A stretch of DNA of 64,000 nucleotides, taken from NCBI GenBank assembly GCA_005502925.1, contig SCPD01000002.1, positions 806,001-870,000 of the forward strand. Reading direction: 5' to 3'. The position numbers and the translations under genes are program-made. Below the pieces are notes generated by a model, which saw only the letters and a program-made list of their open reading frames with translations, was not told the DNA's origin and ran no database searches. Origin of the DNA: Rhizobiales bacterium Y(2018). GTDB lineage: Bacteria > Pseudomonadota > Alphaproteobacteria > Rhizobiales > Aestuariivirgaceae. Of the stretch, positions 5,564-63,496 are shown piece by piece. Every line of letters starts with the position of its first letter. Position 1 is the first letter of the stretch.

Positions 5564-6403
5564 ATGCCCAATTTGCTGCAACGTCTGATCCCGCGCCGCT
5601 GGCGCAAAGAAACGCCTCTTGTCCATGTCGTGCGTCTGCAGGGCGCCATCGGTGTCGGCACGCCCTTCAAGCCGCCTTTGACGCTCGAAGGAATAGCCGG
5701 GACTTTGGAGCGTGCCTTCGCCCGCAAGGGCATCGCCGCCGTCGCCTTGATCGTCAATTCACCAGGCGGTGCGGCGGTCCAGTCGGCCCTGATCCATGAG
5801 CGCATCCGCGCTCTGAGCGCCGAAAAGAACATCCCGGTCTACACTTTCTGCGAGGATGTCGCGGCGTCCGGCGGCTATTGGCTCGCTTGCGCCGGCGATG
5901 AGATCTATGCCGATGCGAGTTCGATCGTCGGCTCGATCGGCGTCATAGCCGCGGGCTTCGGCTTCGTCGAGGCGATCCGCAAGCTCGGCATCGAGCGGCG
6001 CGTCCATACCGCGGGCGAAAACAAATCGATTCTCGATCCTTTCCAGCCCGAGAAACCGGAGGATGTCGAACGCCTGTTGGGCCTGCAGCGCGACGTTCAC
6101 GAAGAATTCAAGACGCTGGTCAGGACGCGCCGGCAAGGCAAGCTCAAGGGCGATGAAACAGAGCTTTTTTCGGGTGCCTTCTGGTCCGGCCGGCAGGCTC
6201 TCACTTTGGGGCTGATCGACGGGATAGGCCATGTGCGCGACGTCATGCGGGGCAAATTCGGCGACAAGACCGAGCTCAAGGTCATCGCCAAGCCGGCCGG
6301 CTGGGGCTTGCGCCGGCTGGGTTTCGGCACCACTTTAGACCCGGCGTCAGGCCTCATTGATGCCATGGAATTACGTGCATTATGGGCTCGTTTCGGTTTA
6401 TGA
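5564..6403 (+). CDS. sppA: S49 family signal peptide peptidase (SppA-like, short form)
   Basis: Serine-lysine peptidase of about 280 residues, the half-length SppA type seen in alphaproteobacteria, thought to cut remnant signal peptides or other membrane-associated peptides. With the ATG at 5564, the catalytic Ser is residue 102 in AASGGYW and the general-base Lys is 154 in AGENKS. The SPGG oxyanion-region motif lies near residue 66. A GTG at 5540 would add eight residues (MPRSYLLP); neither start has a well-spaced ribosome site. There is no obvious N-terminal membrane segment, so association may be peripheral. Confidence 0.88.
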   Translation: MPNLLQRLIPRRWRKETPLVHVVRLQGAIGVGTPFKPPLTLEGIAGTLERAFARKGIAAVALIVNSPGGAAVQSALIHERIRALSAEKNIPVYTFCEDVAASGGYWLACAGDEIYADASSIVGSIGVIAAGFGFVEAIRKLGIERRVHTAGENKSILDPFQPEKPEDVERLLGLQRDVHEEFKTLVRTRRQGKLKGDETELFSGAFWSGRQALTLGLIDGIGHVRDVMRGKFGDKTELKVIAKPAGWGLRRLGFGTTLDPASGLIDAMELRALWARFGL

Positions 6404-6436
6404 TGCCTGCAGATTTGAGACTGGAAGGACCGTTTC

Positions 6437-6619
6437 ATGTTGAAAGCGTTGACGATTACCCTGGTCGGCCTCCTGGCCGCCGCCGCCCTGAAGCAGCTGG
6501 TGGATGGTCTTAACGCCGCCAGAGCCCGGGTTGTTGTCAAGCGCCGCCCGGTCGATCCGCGCGCCGTCACCCGCCTCAGGCAGGATCCGAGGACCGGTAT
6601 TTACTATCCGGATGCCTGA
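6437..6619 (+). CDS. Small hypothetical protein with an N-terminal hydrophobic segment
   Basis: 60 residues. Residues 1-20 form one hydrophobic helix (signal anchor or signal peptide). The rest is basic and ends with QDPRTGIYYPDA. It follows the S49 peptidase by 33 nt on the same strand and has GGAAGGA 8 nt before the ATG, so it is probably expressed with it. I do not recognise the family. The conserved-looking DPxTGxYxP end resembles short conserved proteins next to sppA in related bacteria. Confidence 0.6.
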   Translation: MLKALTITLVGLLAAAALKQLVDGLNAARARVVVKRRPVDPRAVTRLRQDPRTGIYYPDA

Positions 6620-6696
6620 TCGAGGGCTGCCTCGGATCGGCCTTATCTGAGGTGCTGGACCACAGATAATTCTCGCTTAAGTTGCTCGATTGCCAT

Positions 6697-59232: not shown

Positions 59233-60423
59233 TCAGATCTTGATCAGCATCGCCGTCCCATACATGAGGGCGAGGCCTGCGGCCGCACCCGTCAGCGTCG
59301 CCGGCGTCATCAGAGCCTTGACCGGATCCGCCGACGAGCGGGCGAGGAAGGCCGAGACCTCGATGATGACCTGGAGGATGGCGCCGGCGCCGATCGCCAG
59401 CGCCAGCGCCGACCAATGTGGCGCATAAGCGAGGCTGCCCATCCACATGCCGAGCACCGCCGGACCGCCGGCGATGAGGGCGAGTCCGGCGAAGCGCGCC
59501 AGTGACGGCTTGAGCTTGAGCAGGGGAGCGGCGATGCCGATGCCTTCGGTGATGTTGTGGAGCGTGAAGCCCATGACCAGGAAGGTGCCGAGGCCGGCGG
59601 CGCCCGCCGCGAAGGCTGCGCCGATCGCGAGACCTTCGCCGAGATTGTGCAGGCCGATGCCGATGGCGATGAAGGTGGCGAGCGCCAGGCCGCTCGGCTG
59701 GCCTTGCCTCCGCGAGATTCCGAGCAGCAGGATGAAGCTCGCCGCCGCGGCGAGGAGCACCATCATAGGGCCTTGGAAGATCGTGGCCGAGCGCCCGGCG
59801 AATTCGAACGCGTCCTCCATCGTATCGATGAACAGGAAGGCGAGGAGGCCTACCGTCAAAGCGAGCAGGAAGTTCATCACCTGCGGGCCGGCGCCACGCA
59901 GTGCGGGATAGAACATGAGGCCGATCACCACCGGCACGATGCCGACAAAGGCGCCGAGCATCGCCTGCGCGGCGAAGTTGAGCGAGGAGCCTTGCGGGGT
60001 TTCGACCGCGACCGGGATATCGTGGTCGAAGGTGGCGCCCGTATTGGTGACGAAGGTCACCTTATGCGCCTCACCCAATACCCACGGAAAGGGAATGGCG
60101 ATCCAGGCCGAGGCACCGCGTTCGATCGCGCCGGGCGGGTCCTGGGTGAAGCGCCAGTACGCCGCGTCGACCTGGACCTGCGCGATCTTCATCGCCTCCG
60201 AGCCGCCGCCCCTGACCAGAAGACGAAGGCCGCCCTGGTCGAGGATGGTGCGCTCGATGGTGAGATTCTCGACCGGCGGCGCGCCGTTGTTGAAGCTGCC
60301 GAGGAGATTGCCGGCAATGAGCCACCATAGCGCGATGCCGAGAACGACAAGCGGCGCCAGCACCCAGAGGAGCTTCTGCCATGGACGCGGGGCGGGAATG
60401 GATGAGGCCTGATCGGAGCTCAT
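59233..60423 (-). CDS. ZIP-family metal permease with an added N-terminal periplasmic beta domain
   Basis: 396 residues. A first membrane segment (19-38) is followed by a soluble, beta-rich region (about 50-148, VENLTIERTILDQGGLRLLVRGGG...AHKVTFVTNTGATFDHDIPVAVETP) likely in the periplasm. The seven-helix ZIP part follows with both canonical helices: HNLGEG at 259-264 and HNITEG at 289-294, the two metal-binding His/Glu sets. This N-terminal extension is not part of ordinary ZIP carriers. It overlaps the multicopper oxidase gene by 4 nt and is divergent from mntR, so manganese is the best guess for the metal, with iron possible. Confidence 0.87.
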   Translation of the reverse strand: MSSDQASSIPAPRPWQKLLWVLAPLVVLGIALWWLIAGNLLGSFNNGAPPVENLTIERTILDQGGLRLLVRGGGSEAMKIAQVQVDAAYWRFTQDPPGAIERGASAWIAIPFPWVLGEAHKVTFVTNTGATFDHDIPVAVETPQGSSLNFAAQAMLGAFVGIVPVVIGLMFYPALRGAGPQVMNFLLALTVGLLAFLFIDTMEDAFEFAGRSATIFQGPMMVLLAAAASFILLLGISRRQGQPSGLALATFIAIGIGLHNLGEGLAIGAAFAAGAAGLGTFLVMGFTLHNITEGIGIAAPLLKLKPSLARFAGLALIAGGPAVLGMWMGSLAYAPHWSALALAIGAGAILQVIIEVSAFLARSSADPVKALMTPATLTGAAAGLALMYGTAMLIKI

Positions 60424-61565
60424 GACAGCGCCTCCACGACATCGAACATGCCCATCCAGCCGAGCTCAGTGAATTCCGATTGATGCGCATGGAACATGTA
60501 GAGGCCGGGCTCGTGATCGGGCTGTTCGGCGAAAGTGAATTCCAGGATGCCGCGCTGCGCCTGGCATTGCATGATCACGTCGACGGTCTTGAGCGTTGGC
60601 GTCAATGTCGTTCCCTGATCGTAGTAGTCGAAGAAATTGCCGTGCAGATGGAAAGAGTTGATCGGATCGAACTCGGTGACATTGACCAGATAAATGCGCA
60701 CCGGCCGGCTGCGCACCACCTTGATCGGCTGCTTGGCATAACAATGGGCGATGGTGTTGCAGGCATAGAACTCGTTCTCGCCGTCGAAATTCGTGTCGAA
60801 AGCGTTCATCACCATCGCCATTTCCTGCCATTGGGCATTTTCCGGCGTGCCGAGCAGGCGTGAGCTGGCGACCGCCGCCATCTCCGGGTGCCGGGCCGGA
60901 TCGGGGTCGATGACGAACAGGCCATACATGCCTTTGTGGATGTGGCGCGCCAGCGGCAGCGCATGACAATGATAGAGATGGCAGCCATAGGGCCGTGCAT
61001 CAAACTCATAGGTGAATTCGCCGCCCGGCGGCACGAGGCCAGCGCCGGGAATGCCGTCCATGCGCGCCGCATGGAAGCCGTGGAAATGCATCGAATGCGG
61101 ATGCGAGCCGAAATTCTTGAATACGATGCGCACCCGGTCGCCTTCCGTCGCCCGCAGCGCCGGGCCGGGCACGCGGCCATTGAAGGTCCAGGCTGGGAAC
61201 ATCACGCCGGGCGCGATCTCGATTTCCTTGTCCTCGGCGGTCACCTGGAAGGTGCGCAGCCTGCGGCCGTCGGGAAGGGTGGAAACCTCGCCCGTCTCCC
61301 AGTCGGTCAGCATCGCAGTCGGATCGAAGCCGTTCCGCGCCGGATCGACGTCGCCGATGGTGATCATCTCGCCATGGGCGTTCATGTGATTGGTGGTGTC
61401 GTAGGTCGGCGTCCCGCTCGCCGGCGCCTGATGGCCCTGATGCCCGGATGTTTGTTCGCCTTGCCCGAGCGCTCCCTTGGCGCCGAAAGCCGCAGCACTC
61501 GCGGCCAAGAGGCCCGCACCGATGAATCCCCGTCGTTTGAGATCGAATGGCAACCAGCCCGGCAT
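60420..61565 (-). CDS. Tat-exported two-domain multicopper oxidase, type-1 site in domain 1
   Basis: 381 residues. Tat signal KRRGFIGAGLLAASAAAFG at the N-terminus, then a His-rich stretch (GHQGHQ). Domain 1 has HSMHFHG (His160, His162) and the HCH motif His199-Cys200-His201, followed by His208/His210 and Met213, a full type-1 site plus trinuclear ligands. Domain 2 has His306/His308 and HAH 359-361, where Cys is replaced by Ala360, so only domain 1 carries type-1 copper (type C arrangement). All eight trinuclear His are kept, unlike nitrite reductase. Likely a periplasmic metal oxidase serving the coupled ZIP permease. Confidence 0.9.
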   Translation of the reverse strand: MPGWLPFDLKRRGFIGAGLLAASAAAFGAKGALGQGEQTSGHQGHQAPASGTPTYDTTNHMNAHGEMITIGDVDPARNGFDPTAMLTDWETGEVSTLPDGRRLRTFQVTAEDKEIEIAPGVMFPAWTFNGRVPGPALRATEGDRVRIVFKNFGSHPHSMHFHGFHAARMDGIPGAGLVPPGGEFTYEFDARPYGCHLYHCHALPLARHIHKGMYGLFVIDPDPARHPEMAAVASSRLLGTPENAQWQEMAMVMNAFDTNFDGENEFYACNTIAHCYAKQPIKVVRSRPVRIYLVNVTEFDPINSFHLHGNFFDYYDQGTTLTPTLKTVDVIMQCQAQRGILEFTFAEQPDHEPGLYMFHAHQSEFTELGWMGMFDVVEALS

Positions 61566-61614
61566 GACCGCTCCTCTTTTTAGCCCCTACAAACAATAAG
61601 AGCATAAGAGCATT

Positions 61615-61634
61615 ATTATAGCAATGGCTATAAT
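61615..61634. promoter_or_regulatory. MntR-type operator 1
   Basis: ATTATAGC-AATG-GCTATAAT, perfect 8-bp arms. It contains ATAGC-N4-GCTAT, the core of known MntR boxes. It is 50 bp from the oxidase start and 71 bp from mntR. Confidence 0.8.
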
Positions 61635-61658
61635 TTGCCCAAAGTGGCCGAATATCCT

Positions 61659-61672
61659 ATAGCCACGGCTAT
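61659..61672. promoter_or_regulatory. MntR-type operator 2
   Basis: ATAGC-CACG-GCTAT, the same ATAGC-N4-GCTAT core. Centre-to-centre distance from operator 1 is 41 bp, about four helical turns. It lies 33 bp before mntR. Confidence 0.8.
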
Positions 61673-61704
61673 GATCTTTAACGACGAAGCCAACTGACTT
61701 ACCG

Positions 61705-62160
61705 ATGATCAAACCGACGAAAGCACCCGTCCCCGAAAGCACTCTGGTCGATGCCGACACCCATATGGAGAGCTTCCGCCAGACGCGCCATAACCGGCGC
61801 ACTGAGCTTATCGAGGACTATGTCGAGCTGATTGCCGACCTTATCGCCGATCGCGGCGAAGCGCGCCAGGTCGATATCGCACAACGTCTGGGTGTGGCGC
61901 AGCCGACGGTCGCCAAGATGCTGAAGCGGCTCGCCGCCGAAGGGCTCATCCAGCAAAGGCCCTATCGCGGCGTGTTCCTCACCGATGCGGGCGCCGGCCT
62001 CGCCGAGAAAAGCCGCGAGCGCCATCAAATTGTCGAGAGCTTCCTCTGCGCCTTGGGGATCAGCCCGGAGATCGCACGCGTCGACGCCGAGGGCATCGAG
62101 CATCATGTCAGCCTTGAGACTTTGAACGCGTTTCGCGACTTCCTGCGAAATCGGGAATAA
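61705..62160 (+). CDS. mntR: Manganese-responsive transcriptional regulator MntR (DtxR family)
   Basis: 151 residues. Winged helix ([41 protein letters not shown]) and dimerisation domain. All six Mn ligands of Bacillus subtilis MntR have counterparts: Asp38 and Glu41 (IEDYVEL), His107 (ERHQIVESF), and Glu129, Glu132, His133 ([10 protein letters not shown]). An N-terminal extension of about 30 residues is usual for Gram-negative MntR. The two ATAGC-N4-GCTAT sites lie in the shared promoter, so it should regulate both itself and the oxidase-ZIP genes. Confidence 0.95.
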
Positions 62161-63047: not shown

Positions 63048-63127
63048 AATGGGAATAGGGGACGGCATCGTCCGTTCATCACGCGGGTGCGCATGAGGCC
63101 GCCCGCGAACAGATGAAAGGAAGCGAT

Positions 63128-63496
63128 ATGAAACGCACAGCGATTCTCACCGGAGTCCTGGCCCTGGGTCTTGGTGCGAGCGCGGCCGATGCGCTGCCGC
63201 TCGCCAAGCCTGATTTCCCGGGCACGCAGACCGTAACCGGCAAGACCGGTCAGATCATCCTGGCGGGCAACAGCTCATCGAACTCGTCTTCGAATTCGAG
63301 CTCCAACAGCTCGTCCAATTCGTCGTCCAATTCCTCCTCGAATTCGAGTTCGAACAGCTCGTCGAATTCCTCTTCCAACTCAAGCTCGAACAGCTCCTCG
63401 AATTCGAGCTCGAACCGTTCATCCAACAGCTCGTCGAATTCCTCGGGCTATTCGAAGAACTGGTCGAGCAAGGGGTCGGTCAAGCGCAAGAACTGA
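63128..63496 (+). CDS. Secreted low-complexity protein with (NSSS) tetrapeptide repeats
   Basis: 122 residues. Signal peptide about 1-22 (cut near ADA-LP). After GKTGQIILAG come 15 four-residue units: 12 perfect NSSS, then NRSS, NSSS and NSSG, and a basic tail (YSKNWSSKGSVKRKN). AGGAAG precedes ATG 63128. The mature product should be an extended, hydrophilic chain, perhaps a surface or matrix linker or a glycosylation scaffold. No function is known. A rho-independent terminator follows at 63520. Confidence 0.7.
   Translation: MKRTAILTGVLALGLGASAADALPLAKPDFPGTQTVTGKTGQIILAGNSSSNSSSNSSSNSSSNSSSNSSSNSSSNSSSNSSSNSSSNSSSNSSSNRSSNSSSNSSGYSKNWSSKGSVKRKN

Follow-up and report, generated by a model that had tools for sequence, protein, structure and literature searches.

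In yeast, an extramembrane multicopper oxidase (MCO), Fet3, is paired with a dedicated permease, Ftr1, for the uptake of iron. Among archaea, the available part of a report on N. viennensis proposes that MCO1 oxidizes Cu(I) and that the neighboring zinc/iron permease imports Cu(II) (NVIE_000600/000590; PMC7785015). Also, manganese oxidation is described as raising intracellular Mn in P. putida GB-1, for which the accessible text names Fet3/Ftr1 as an analogy (PMC3798386). Here, we describe a gene pair, mco-zip, in a 64,000-nucleotide stretch of DNA from Rhizobiales bacterium Y(2018) (contig SCPD01000002.1, positions 806,001 to 870,000; the window hereafter), which is composed of the genes for an exported MCO and a ZIP-family permease and adjoins mntR. 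Judging from its operators, it is very probable that mco-zip is part of the response to manganese starvation, where its function would most likely be that of an importer; we consider it probable that the pair is a manganese acquisition system induced by manganese starvation.

The resemblance of mco-zip to Fet3-Ftr1 is one of logic only: Fet3 is larger and membrane-bound, Ftr1 does not belong to the ZIP family, the metal is iron, and the permease described here, being a ZIP, is not of the Ftr1/EfeU type. The Mn-oxidizing proteins MnxG, McoA, MoxA, and CueO share the MCO superfamily with our oxidase but are larger MCOs, not two-domain ones, and are not known to have a ZIP partner. In terms of regulation, mco-zip is akin to the MntR and Mur regulons (MntH and SitABC(D)), as its operator is common to mntH in this genome and the Mur-type box to sitA-type/mntH genes in relatives, whereas for transport it has a ZIP that is partnered by an oxidase. 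The N. viennensis pair is alike in that a two-domain MCO gene adjoins a ZIP-type permease gene and joint uptake is proposed; compared by description only, it differs in the proposed metal, copper, and in that the available text names no Mn regulator (PMC7785015). MCO-ZIP pairs belonging to the present family are also found in haloarchaea, in annotated plasmid regions. The author of a preliminary description of the window knew of no described bacterial system of this make-up; indeed, no publication dealing with control of an MCO-ZIP operon by MntR or Mur was found among the literature matches listed, but an archaeal MCO-permease pair has been published (PMC7785015). Oxidase-permease pairs themselves are thus known, and what is new here is such a pair with a ZIP, a docking-like extra domain, and apparent control by manganese starvation.

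Operators in front of mco-zip

The layout given in the preliminary description, namely a Tat-exported MCO, a ZIP gene overlapping it by 4 nt, a divergent mntR, and two palindromes, was reproduced from the open reading frames and the sequence (Table 1). The end of the MCO gene is joined to the start of the ZIP gene by the overlap ATGA, and the gap of 139 bp between the MCO gene and mntR contains both palindromes. Palindrome 1 overlaps a -10-like TATAAT of the MCO gene (61615-61620, minus strand; read by eye), and the sole promoter-like match of a scanner at this palindrome was a weak AATAAT (61617-61612; 9/12). With up to one mismatch, ATAGC-N4-GCTAT matched only twice in the window, both times in the gap; shuffles of the window gave 0.65 matches on average and two or more in 14 of 100, and such a number in 64 kb is hence not rare. 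However, among 200,000 shuffles of the gap that preserved its composition, none contained two exact copies (23 contained one), and chance palindromes are ruled out by position and exactness, not by number within the window.

Table 1. Coordinates of the mco-zip locus in the window and residue ranges of the ZIP permease
Feature	Position	Strand	Description
MCO gene	60420-61565	-	Tat-type exported two-domain multicopper oxidase, 381 aa
ZIP permease gene	59233-60423	-	ZIP-family metal permease, 396 aa
ZIP extra beta-sandwich domain (residues 54-136)	60016-60264	-	
mntR	61705-62160	+	manganese-responsive DtxR-family regulator, 151 aa
MntR-type palindrome 1	61616-61633		TTATAGC-AATG-GCTATAA; exact core ATAGC-N4-GCTAT at 61618-61631
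MntR-type palindrome 2	61656-61675		exact core ATAGC-CACG-GCTAT at 61659-61672; upstream of mntR
ZIP N-terminal transmembrane helix	residues 14-37		
ZIP beta domain	residues 54-136		
ZIP core	residues 147-395		8 helices
ZIP metal-site motif	residues 259-264		HNLGEG
ZIP metal-site motif	residues 289-294		HNITEG

The product of mntR scored 244.7 bits with NF008273, well above the curated MntR cut-off of 153, and its nearest structure was PDB 2h09, labelled "mntR" (E = 3.5e-55); D38, E41, H107, E129, E132, and H133 stand at the metal-ligand positions of B. subtilis MntR. This is the single close MntR in the genome, the next match having 24% identity. In the whole genome (7.1 Mb), the exact MntR box was present at four sites, two of them in the gap and a third directly preceding the sole Nramp gene; mco-zip and mntH thus share a palindrome at the promoter, as in an MntR regulon. 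The reversed pattern used as a control hit 11 sites as against the four of the true box; the number of boxes is therefore uninformative, but their position is informative. The fourth exact box (L118, G000:C31:372462) is located between the genes for a sugar-binding protein and an IclR-type regulator and looks like chance; an Ftr1-like permease was noticed near it by eye. A good Mur-type box (see below) was not found in this genome, the best match having two mismatches.

In relatives, the operator was exchanged. Using a stretch of 270 bp around the start of MCO, we scored 78 of the 80 best loci of a scan described in the next section (L068 and L100 were dropped; the contig of L100 ends inside MCO), and an MntR-type box (8 or 9 of 9) was present in all 34 loci with an adjacent mntR and in 11 of the 44 others, with a background of 38 in 1560 shuffles of the same stretches and 16 in 1495 random windows. 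Another, Fur/Mur-type pattern, TGCAAATNATTNNNATTTGCA, was matched with three mismatches or fewer in 30 of the 44 loci without an adjacent mntR and in 0 of the 34 with it (background: 1/1560 shuffles and 0/1495 random windows), and we infer that it is the Mur box; because the pattern was derived from these MCO promoters, finding it there is in part circular, which does not hold for other sites. Two loci, L045 and L084, have both boxes upstream of MCO, and their promoters are possible intermediates of operator exchange. On a quick ZIP tree (79 or 78 rows, with SH-aLRT support only), the class of operator changed at least six times.

Furthermore, eight genomes chosen for their box-bearing loci (L076 at three mismatches) were searched throughout for the Mur-type box with two mismatches or fewer, which gave 21 distinct sites and, for the reversed control, 0. 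These sites were distributed as follows: eight at MCO, six before a sitA-type gene, two before an Nramp (mntH) gene (both calls rest on Pfam), and five elsewhere. PF01297 was found in all six sitA-type proteins, which have at least 69% identity to the copy of L131, and the one compared to structures was nearest to YfeA and MntC. Also, an exact Mur-type box closely precedes the gene for a protein that, judged by eye, is secreted and cupredoxin-like (L127, ~972-1521; in the Bradyrhizobium genome of L076) and for which no Pfam match was found at 1e-5; its gene is a candidate for a new Mur target.

According to the available text, rhizobial Mur responds to Mn and represses both sitABCD and mntH (PMC5575495). 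MntR and Mur are unrelated proteins that share the Mn signal, and their swap in front of the same operon is hard to explain unless the operon serves manganese. The Mn control claimed at the outset is hence supported, at the level of sequence, by the MntR boxes, the exchange with the Mur-type box, and the boxes common to mntH/sitA-type genes.

The preliminary description had proposed Mn or Fe as the metal, and mco-zip might instead take up iron, with the MCO as a ferroxidase feeding the ZIP in the manner of a bacterial Fet3/Ftr1 and MntR as a secondary control. Such a function would match the MCO-permease logic of Fet3/Ftr1, and ZIPs can carry Fe; the second operator is Fur-type in shape, and DtxR-type regulators with a FeoA domain lie beside distant copies of the pair. 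Also, YfeA is named iron-binding in its entry, which weakens the argument against iron, and the available text on Rhodobacter sphaeroides states that Fur/Mur affects iron metabolism as well (PMC3413700). Nevertheless, the Fur-type box stands before sitA-type/mntH genes at eight of the 13 sites outside MCO promoters in the eight genomes, and the other five are not tied to iron uptake genes (one is near a Fur-family gene). Furthermore, rhizobial Mur, as noted above, represses sitABCD and mntH in response to Mn (PMC5575495), and the MntR of the window is of the Mn type. Of the two metals, therefore, Mn control is supported by the operators, and iron uptake appears quite unlikely in view of the box common to sitA-type/mntH genes.

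Linkage and gene neighborhoods of the pair

Conserved linkage of the two genes, on which the preliminary description had staked its proposal, proved to be very strong. Among 60 relatives (own genome included), ZIP was present in 13, all of which have the MCO adjoining, and one further relative (L015) has a piece of MCO only, where the contig ends. Of 397 genomes sampled from the order, 25 contained MCO (E <= 1e-50) and 26 contained ZIP (E <= 1e-20), the ZIP being adjacent by coordinates in all 25 MCO genomes. A phylum sample of 299 genomes, which overlaps with the order sample, contained MCO in two and ZIP (E <= 1e-12) in four, and the system is thus uncommon. Other MCOs are widespread, with some match at E <= 0.001 in 50 of the 60 relatives, and the linkage counts were made at E <= 1e-50 (order and phylum samples) or with close full-length matches. 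When named genomes were scanned with the ZIP alignment, at least 587 relatives were detected, of which the best 80 loci were kept (numbered with L); MCO matched directly upstream of ZIP in 80 of 80, with the MCO cut by a contig end in L068 and L100 and in two pieces in L051 and L082, and a divergent mntR adjoined the pair in 34.

Plasmids from actinobacteria, cyanobacteria, a bacillus, and haloarchaea contain the pair as well, and the symbiont Sinorhizobium fredii NGR234 is among its carriers. In PLSDB, MCO was found in 144 and ZIP in 145 records, many of which are near-copies of one another, with equal counts in the ten commonest genera, and the two genes are neighbors in all ten annotated plasmid regions opened. 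Six of these ten have a regulator of the DtxR/MntR family beside MCO (Arthrobacter, Halorubrum, Rubrobacter, Haloprofundus, Sulfitobacter, and Sinorhizobium). Chance pairing of MCO and ZIP is ruled out by this conserved linkage. As for the genomes without the pair, G479 encodes a 248-aa ZIP beginning at the ZIP core, with no MCO in the 12 kb fetched around it, and does not belong to the MCO genomes of the order sample; G240 has a remnant without MCO, in which mntR residues 105-146 abut ZIP residue 221 onward (L165, G240:C15, ~5968-6620), and G076 has a distant ordinary ZIP only.

In the fetched flanks of the 80 loci, where one representative of each protein cluster was checked, a ZntA-like P-type ATPase cluster occurred in 27 loci, a PCuAC cluster near 21, and an SCO1 cluster near 20, along with MerR-type, lspA, and lnt clusters. 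On the annotated plasmids, a P-type ATPase, CDF, ArsR, or MerF was among the neighbors of the pair, and 74 of the 144 MCO plasmid records are predicted to be conjugative. The ATPase, MerR-type, lspA, and lnt clusters and these plasmid features would be expected if the pair were a cargo of heavy-metal islands, in which Cu(I) or Fe(II) would be detoxified by the MCO, and Mn displaced by competing Zn, Cd, or Cu would be replenished through the ZIP; the support for the earlier suggestion that the MCO protects from Cu stress is indirect only. No such genes were found, however, among those examined beside the pair in the window, the fetched flanks of 53 of the 80 loci contain no such ATPase, and the regulators sense Mn and not a toxic metal. 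We consider a role in metal stress very unlikely, and it overlaps with manganese acquisition in that the ZIP would still import Mn.

The PCuAC and SCO1 clusters could also speak for copper acquisition as in the archaeal MCO1-permease, where the MCO would oxidize Cu(I) and the ZIP would take up Cu(II); these copper chaperones can equally serve the loading of the MCO, however, and may do so here. The similar pair in N. viennensis is up-regulated under Cu limitation, but in the available text the induction is modest, with log2 values of 0.81 (MCO1) and 1.33 (neighboring permease) (PMC7785015). The operators here are those of Mn sensors, and we judge copper acquisition to be a highly improbable function of mco-zip.

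Downstream of the pair in distant copies, a Rieske protein is encoded in three and a plastocyanin in two of the ten plasmid regions. The loci with these Rieske [2Fe-2S]/plastocyanin genes are L168, L171, and L175 (and L167 and L174), from actinobacteria, a cyanobacterium, and haloarchaea, hinting at possible electron partners.

Structural features of the MCO and the ZIP

The MCO has two cupredoxin domains (Cu-oxidase_3, E = 2.4e-25; Cu-oxidase_2, E = 9.4e-22), and its twin Arg, R11-R12, is kept in all nine alignment rows from this window to haloarchaea. In 37 selected rows and in the nine rows reaching haloarchaea, H157, H160, H162, H199, C200, H201, H208, H306, H308, H359, and H361 are invariant; from family knowledge, we take H157, C200, and H208 in domain 1 to be the type 1 copper ligands and the remaining eight His residues to be those of the trinuclear site, which is the composition of a two-domain MCO. 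The predicted model is fair only (pLDDT 70.1). The nearest structures of the protein, 7RAB (E = 5.5e-165) and 3GDC (E = 1.8e-98), place it in the same subfamily as the MCO of Marinithermus hydrothermalis (7RAB/7RAC; dodecameric by entry title) and that of Arthrobacter sp. FB24 (3GDC). Indeed, 3GDC matches the MCO of the MCO-ZIP-regulator locus in Arthrobacter FB24 over all 288 residues. Identities as a copper nitrite reductase (NirK; TIGR02376, 86.2 bits against a cut-off of 296.3) and as CueO, CopA, or laccase (all under curated cut-offs) were rejected.

The permease scored 22.9 bits with PF02535, under the Pfam cut-off of 35.1; its assignment to ZIP in the preliminary description is nonetheless right, because a profile of 13 ZIP sequences matches BbZIP chains (best E = 4.4e-5) and so does the fold of an AlphaFold2 model (pLDDT 86.8; E = 4.9e-7). 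By profile and predicted fold, therefore, the permease is a divergent ZIP, and an Arthrobacter relative passes the Pfam cut-off with 42.7 bits. The predicted model has the 8-helix fold, and the residues of both HN-xx-EG motifs (H259, N260, E263, H289, N290, and E293) are invariant in alignments of 13, 42, and 10 rows; these six residues and the 11 candidate copper ligands of MCO are conserved out to haloarchaea. The second-site glutamate of BbZIP, presumably E240, aligns with A322.

Two additional elements precede the eight ZIP helices in the model, namely a helix at the N-terminus and a beta sandwich, the block of which has pLDDT values of 87-96. Canonical ZIP topology puts an extra N-terminal domain in the periplasm; assuming this topology, the domain would be located where the MCO goes. 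Shorter fold matches, probably to this domain, were generic and weak (FlaF/FlaG, DsbD-N, and CopC; E of 0.0027 or worse). The extra domain is present in nine of nine MCO-linked ZIPs (alignment A4) and absent from the MCO-less ZIP of G479, which points to the domain as the partner of MCO, and we regard it as a candidate docking site for the oxidase.

A possible mechanism and its significance

When Mn is plentiful, Mn-loaded MntR would occupy both palindromes, one of which covers the -10 region of MCO, and mco-zip would be silenced; in relatives, Mur would silence it through the different box. Under scarcity of Mn, the pair would be expressed, and the MCO would be exported via the Tat pathway and may assemble as a trimer or a larger oligomer. 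The MCO would then work beside the ZIP, probably docked on the extra periplasmic domain, and the ZIP would import Mn(II). For the MCO in this scheme, we tentatively put first the role of a metallo-oxidase acting at the mouth of the ZIP, where it would convert Fe(II) or Cu(I) competing for entry and thereby let a broad divalent carrier take up Mn(II) selectively. Next in order, and unlikely in our estimate, is the analogous alternative that Mn(II) itself is oxidized and the ZIP receives Mn(III) from the MCO in the way that Ftr1 receives iron from Fet3; the third is the freeing of Mn from organic chelates. The broader form of the second alternative, namely a Mn counterpart of Fet3-Ftr1, is more speculative still and should be regarded as rather improbable: an MCO docked on the extra periplasmic domain of the ZIP would oxidize Mn(II) and pass Mn(III) on to the ZIP directly, and Mn(II) oxidation by bacteria would have begun, or would persist, as a nutrient-uptake step under Mn starvation in bacteria and haloarchaea.

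Several observations weigh against manganese acquisition as the function of mco-zip. Neither box was present in five of the 78 scored loci (L058, L077, L107, L108, and L113), and five of the 21 Mur-type sites lie elsewhere than at MCO, sitA-type, or mntH genes. No sitA-type protein passes an NCBIfam cut-off, and the best model for that of L128 is a zinc one (1/6). The actinobacterial and haloarchaeal copies adjoin the longer DtxR-type regulator with a FeoA domain, which scores below the curated MntR cut-offs and whose metal is not certain. The ZntA-like ATPase cluster could point to detoxification, and the response of the N. viennensis pair to Cu limitation to copper. Also, ZIPs carry many divalent metals, Fe among them, and the link between the extra domain and the oxidase depends on a single ZIP of this subfamily that has no MCO.

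If manganese acquisition by mco-zip is true, a route of Mn uptake beyond MntH and SitABC exists in soil, marine, and symbiotic bacteria as well as in haloarchaea and is often plasmid-borne. An exported oxidase would then be tied to Mn starvation and not to Mn excess, and why bacteria oxidize Mn would become directly testable in a two-gene system. Furthermore, a gene context is gained for 3GDC, an MCO whose structure is solved, and, through its sequence relationship, for 7RAB.

As for the surroundings of the pair in the window, no metal link was found for the neighbors examined, which are a cupin-like protein, an HpaB-like oxygenase, and a DUF6065 protein. Also, a small secreted-looking protein composed mostly of Ser-Ser-Asn repeats is encoded at 63113-63496 on the plus strand.

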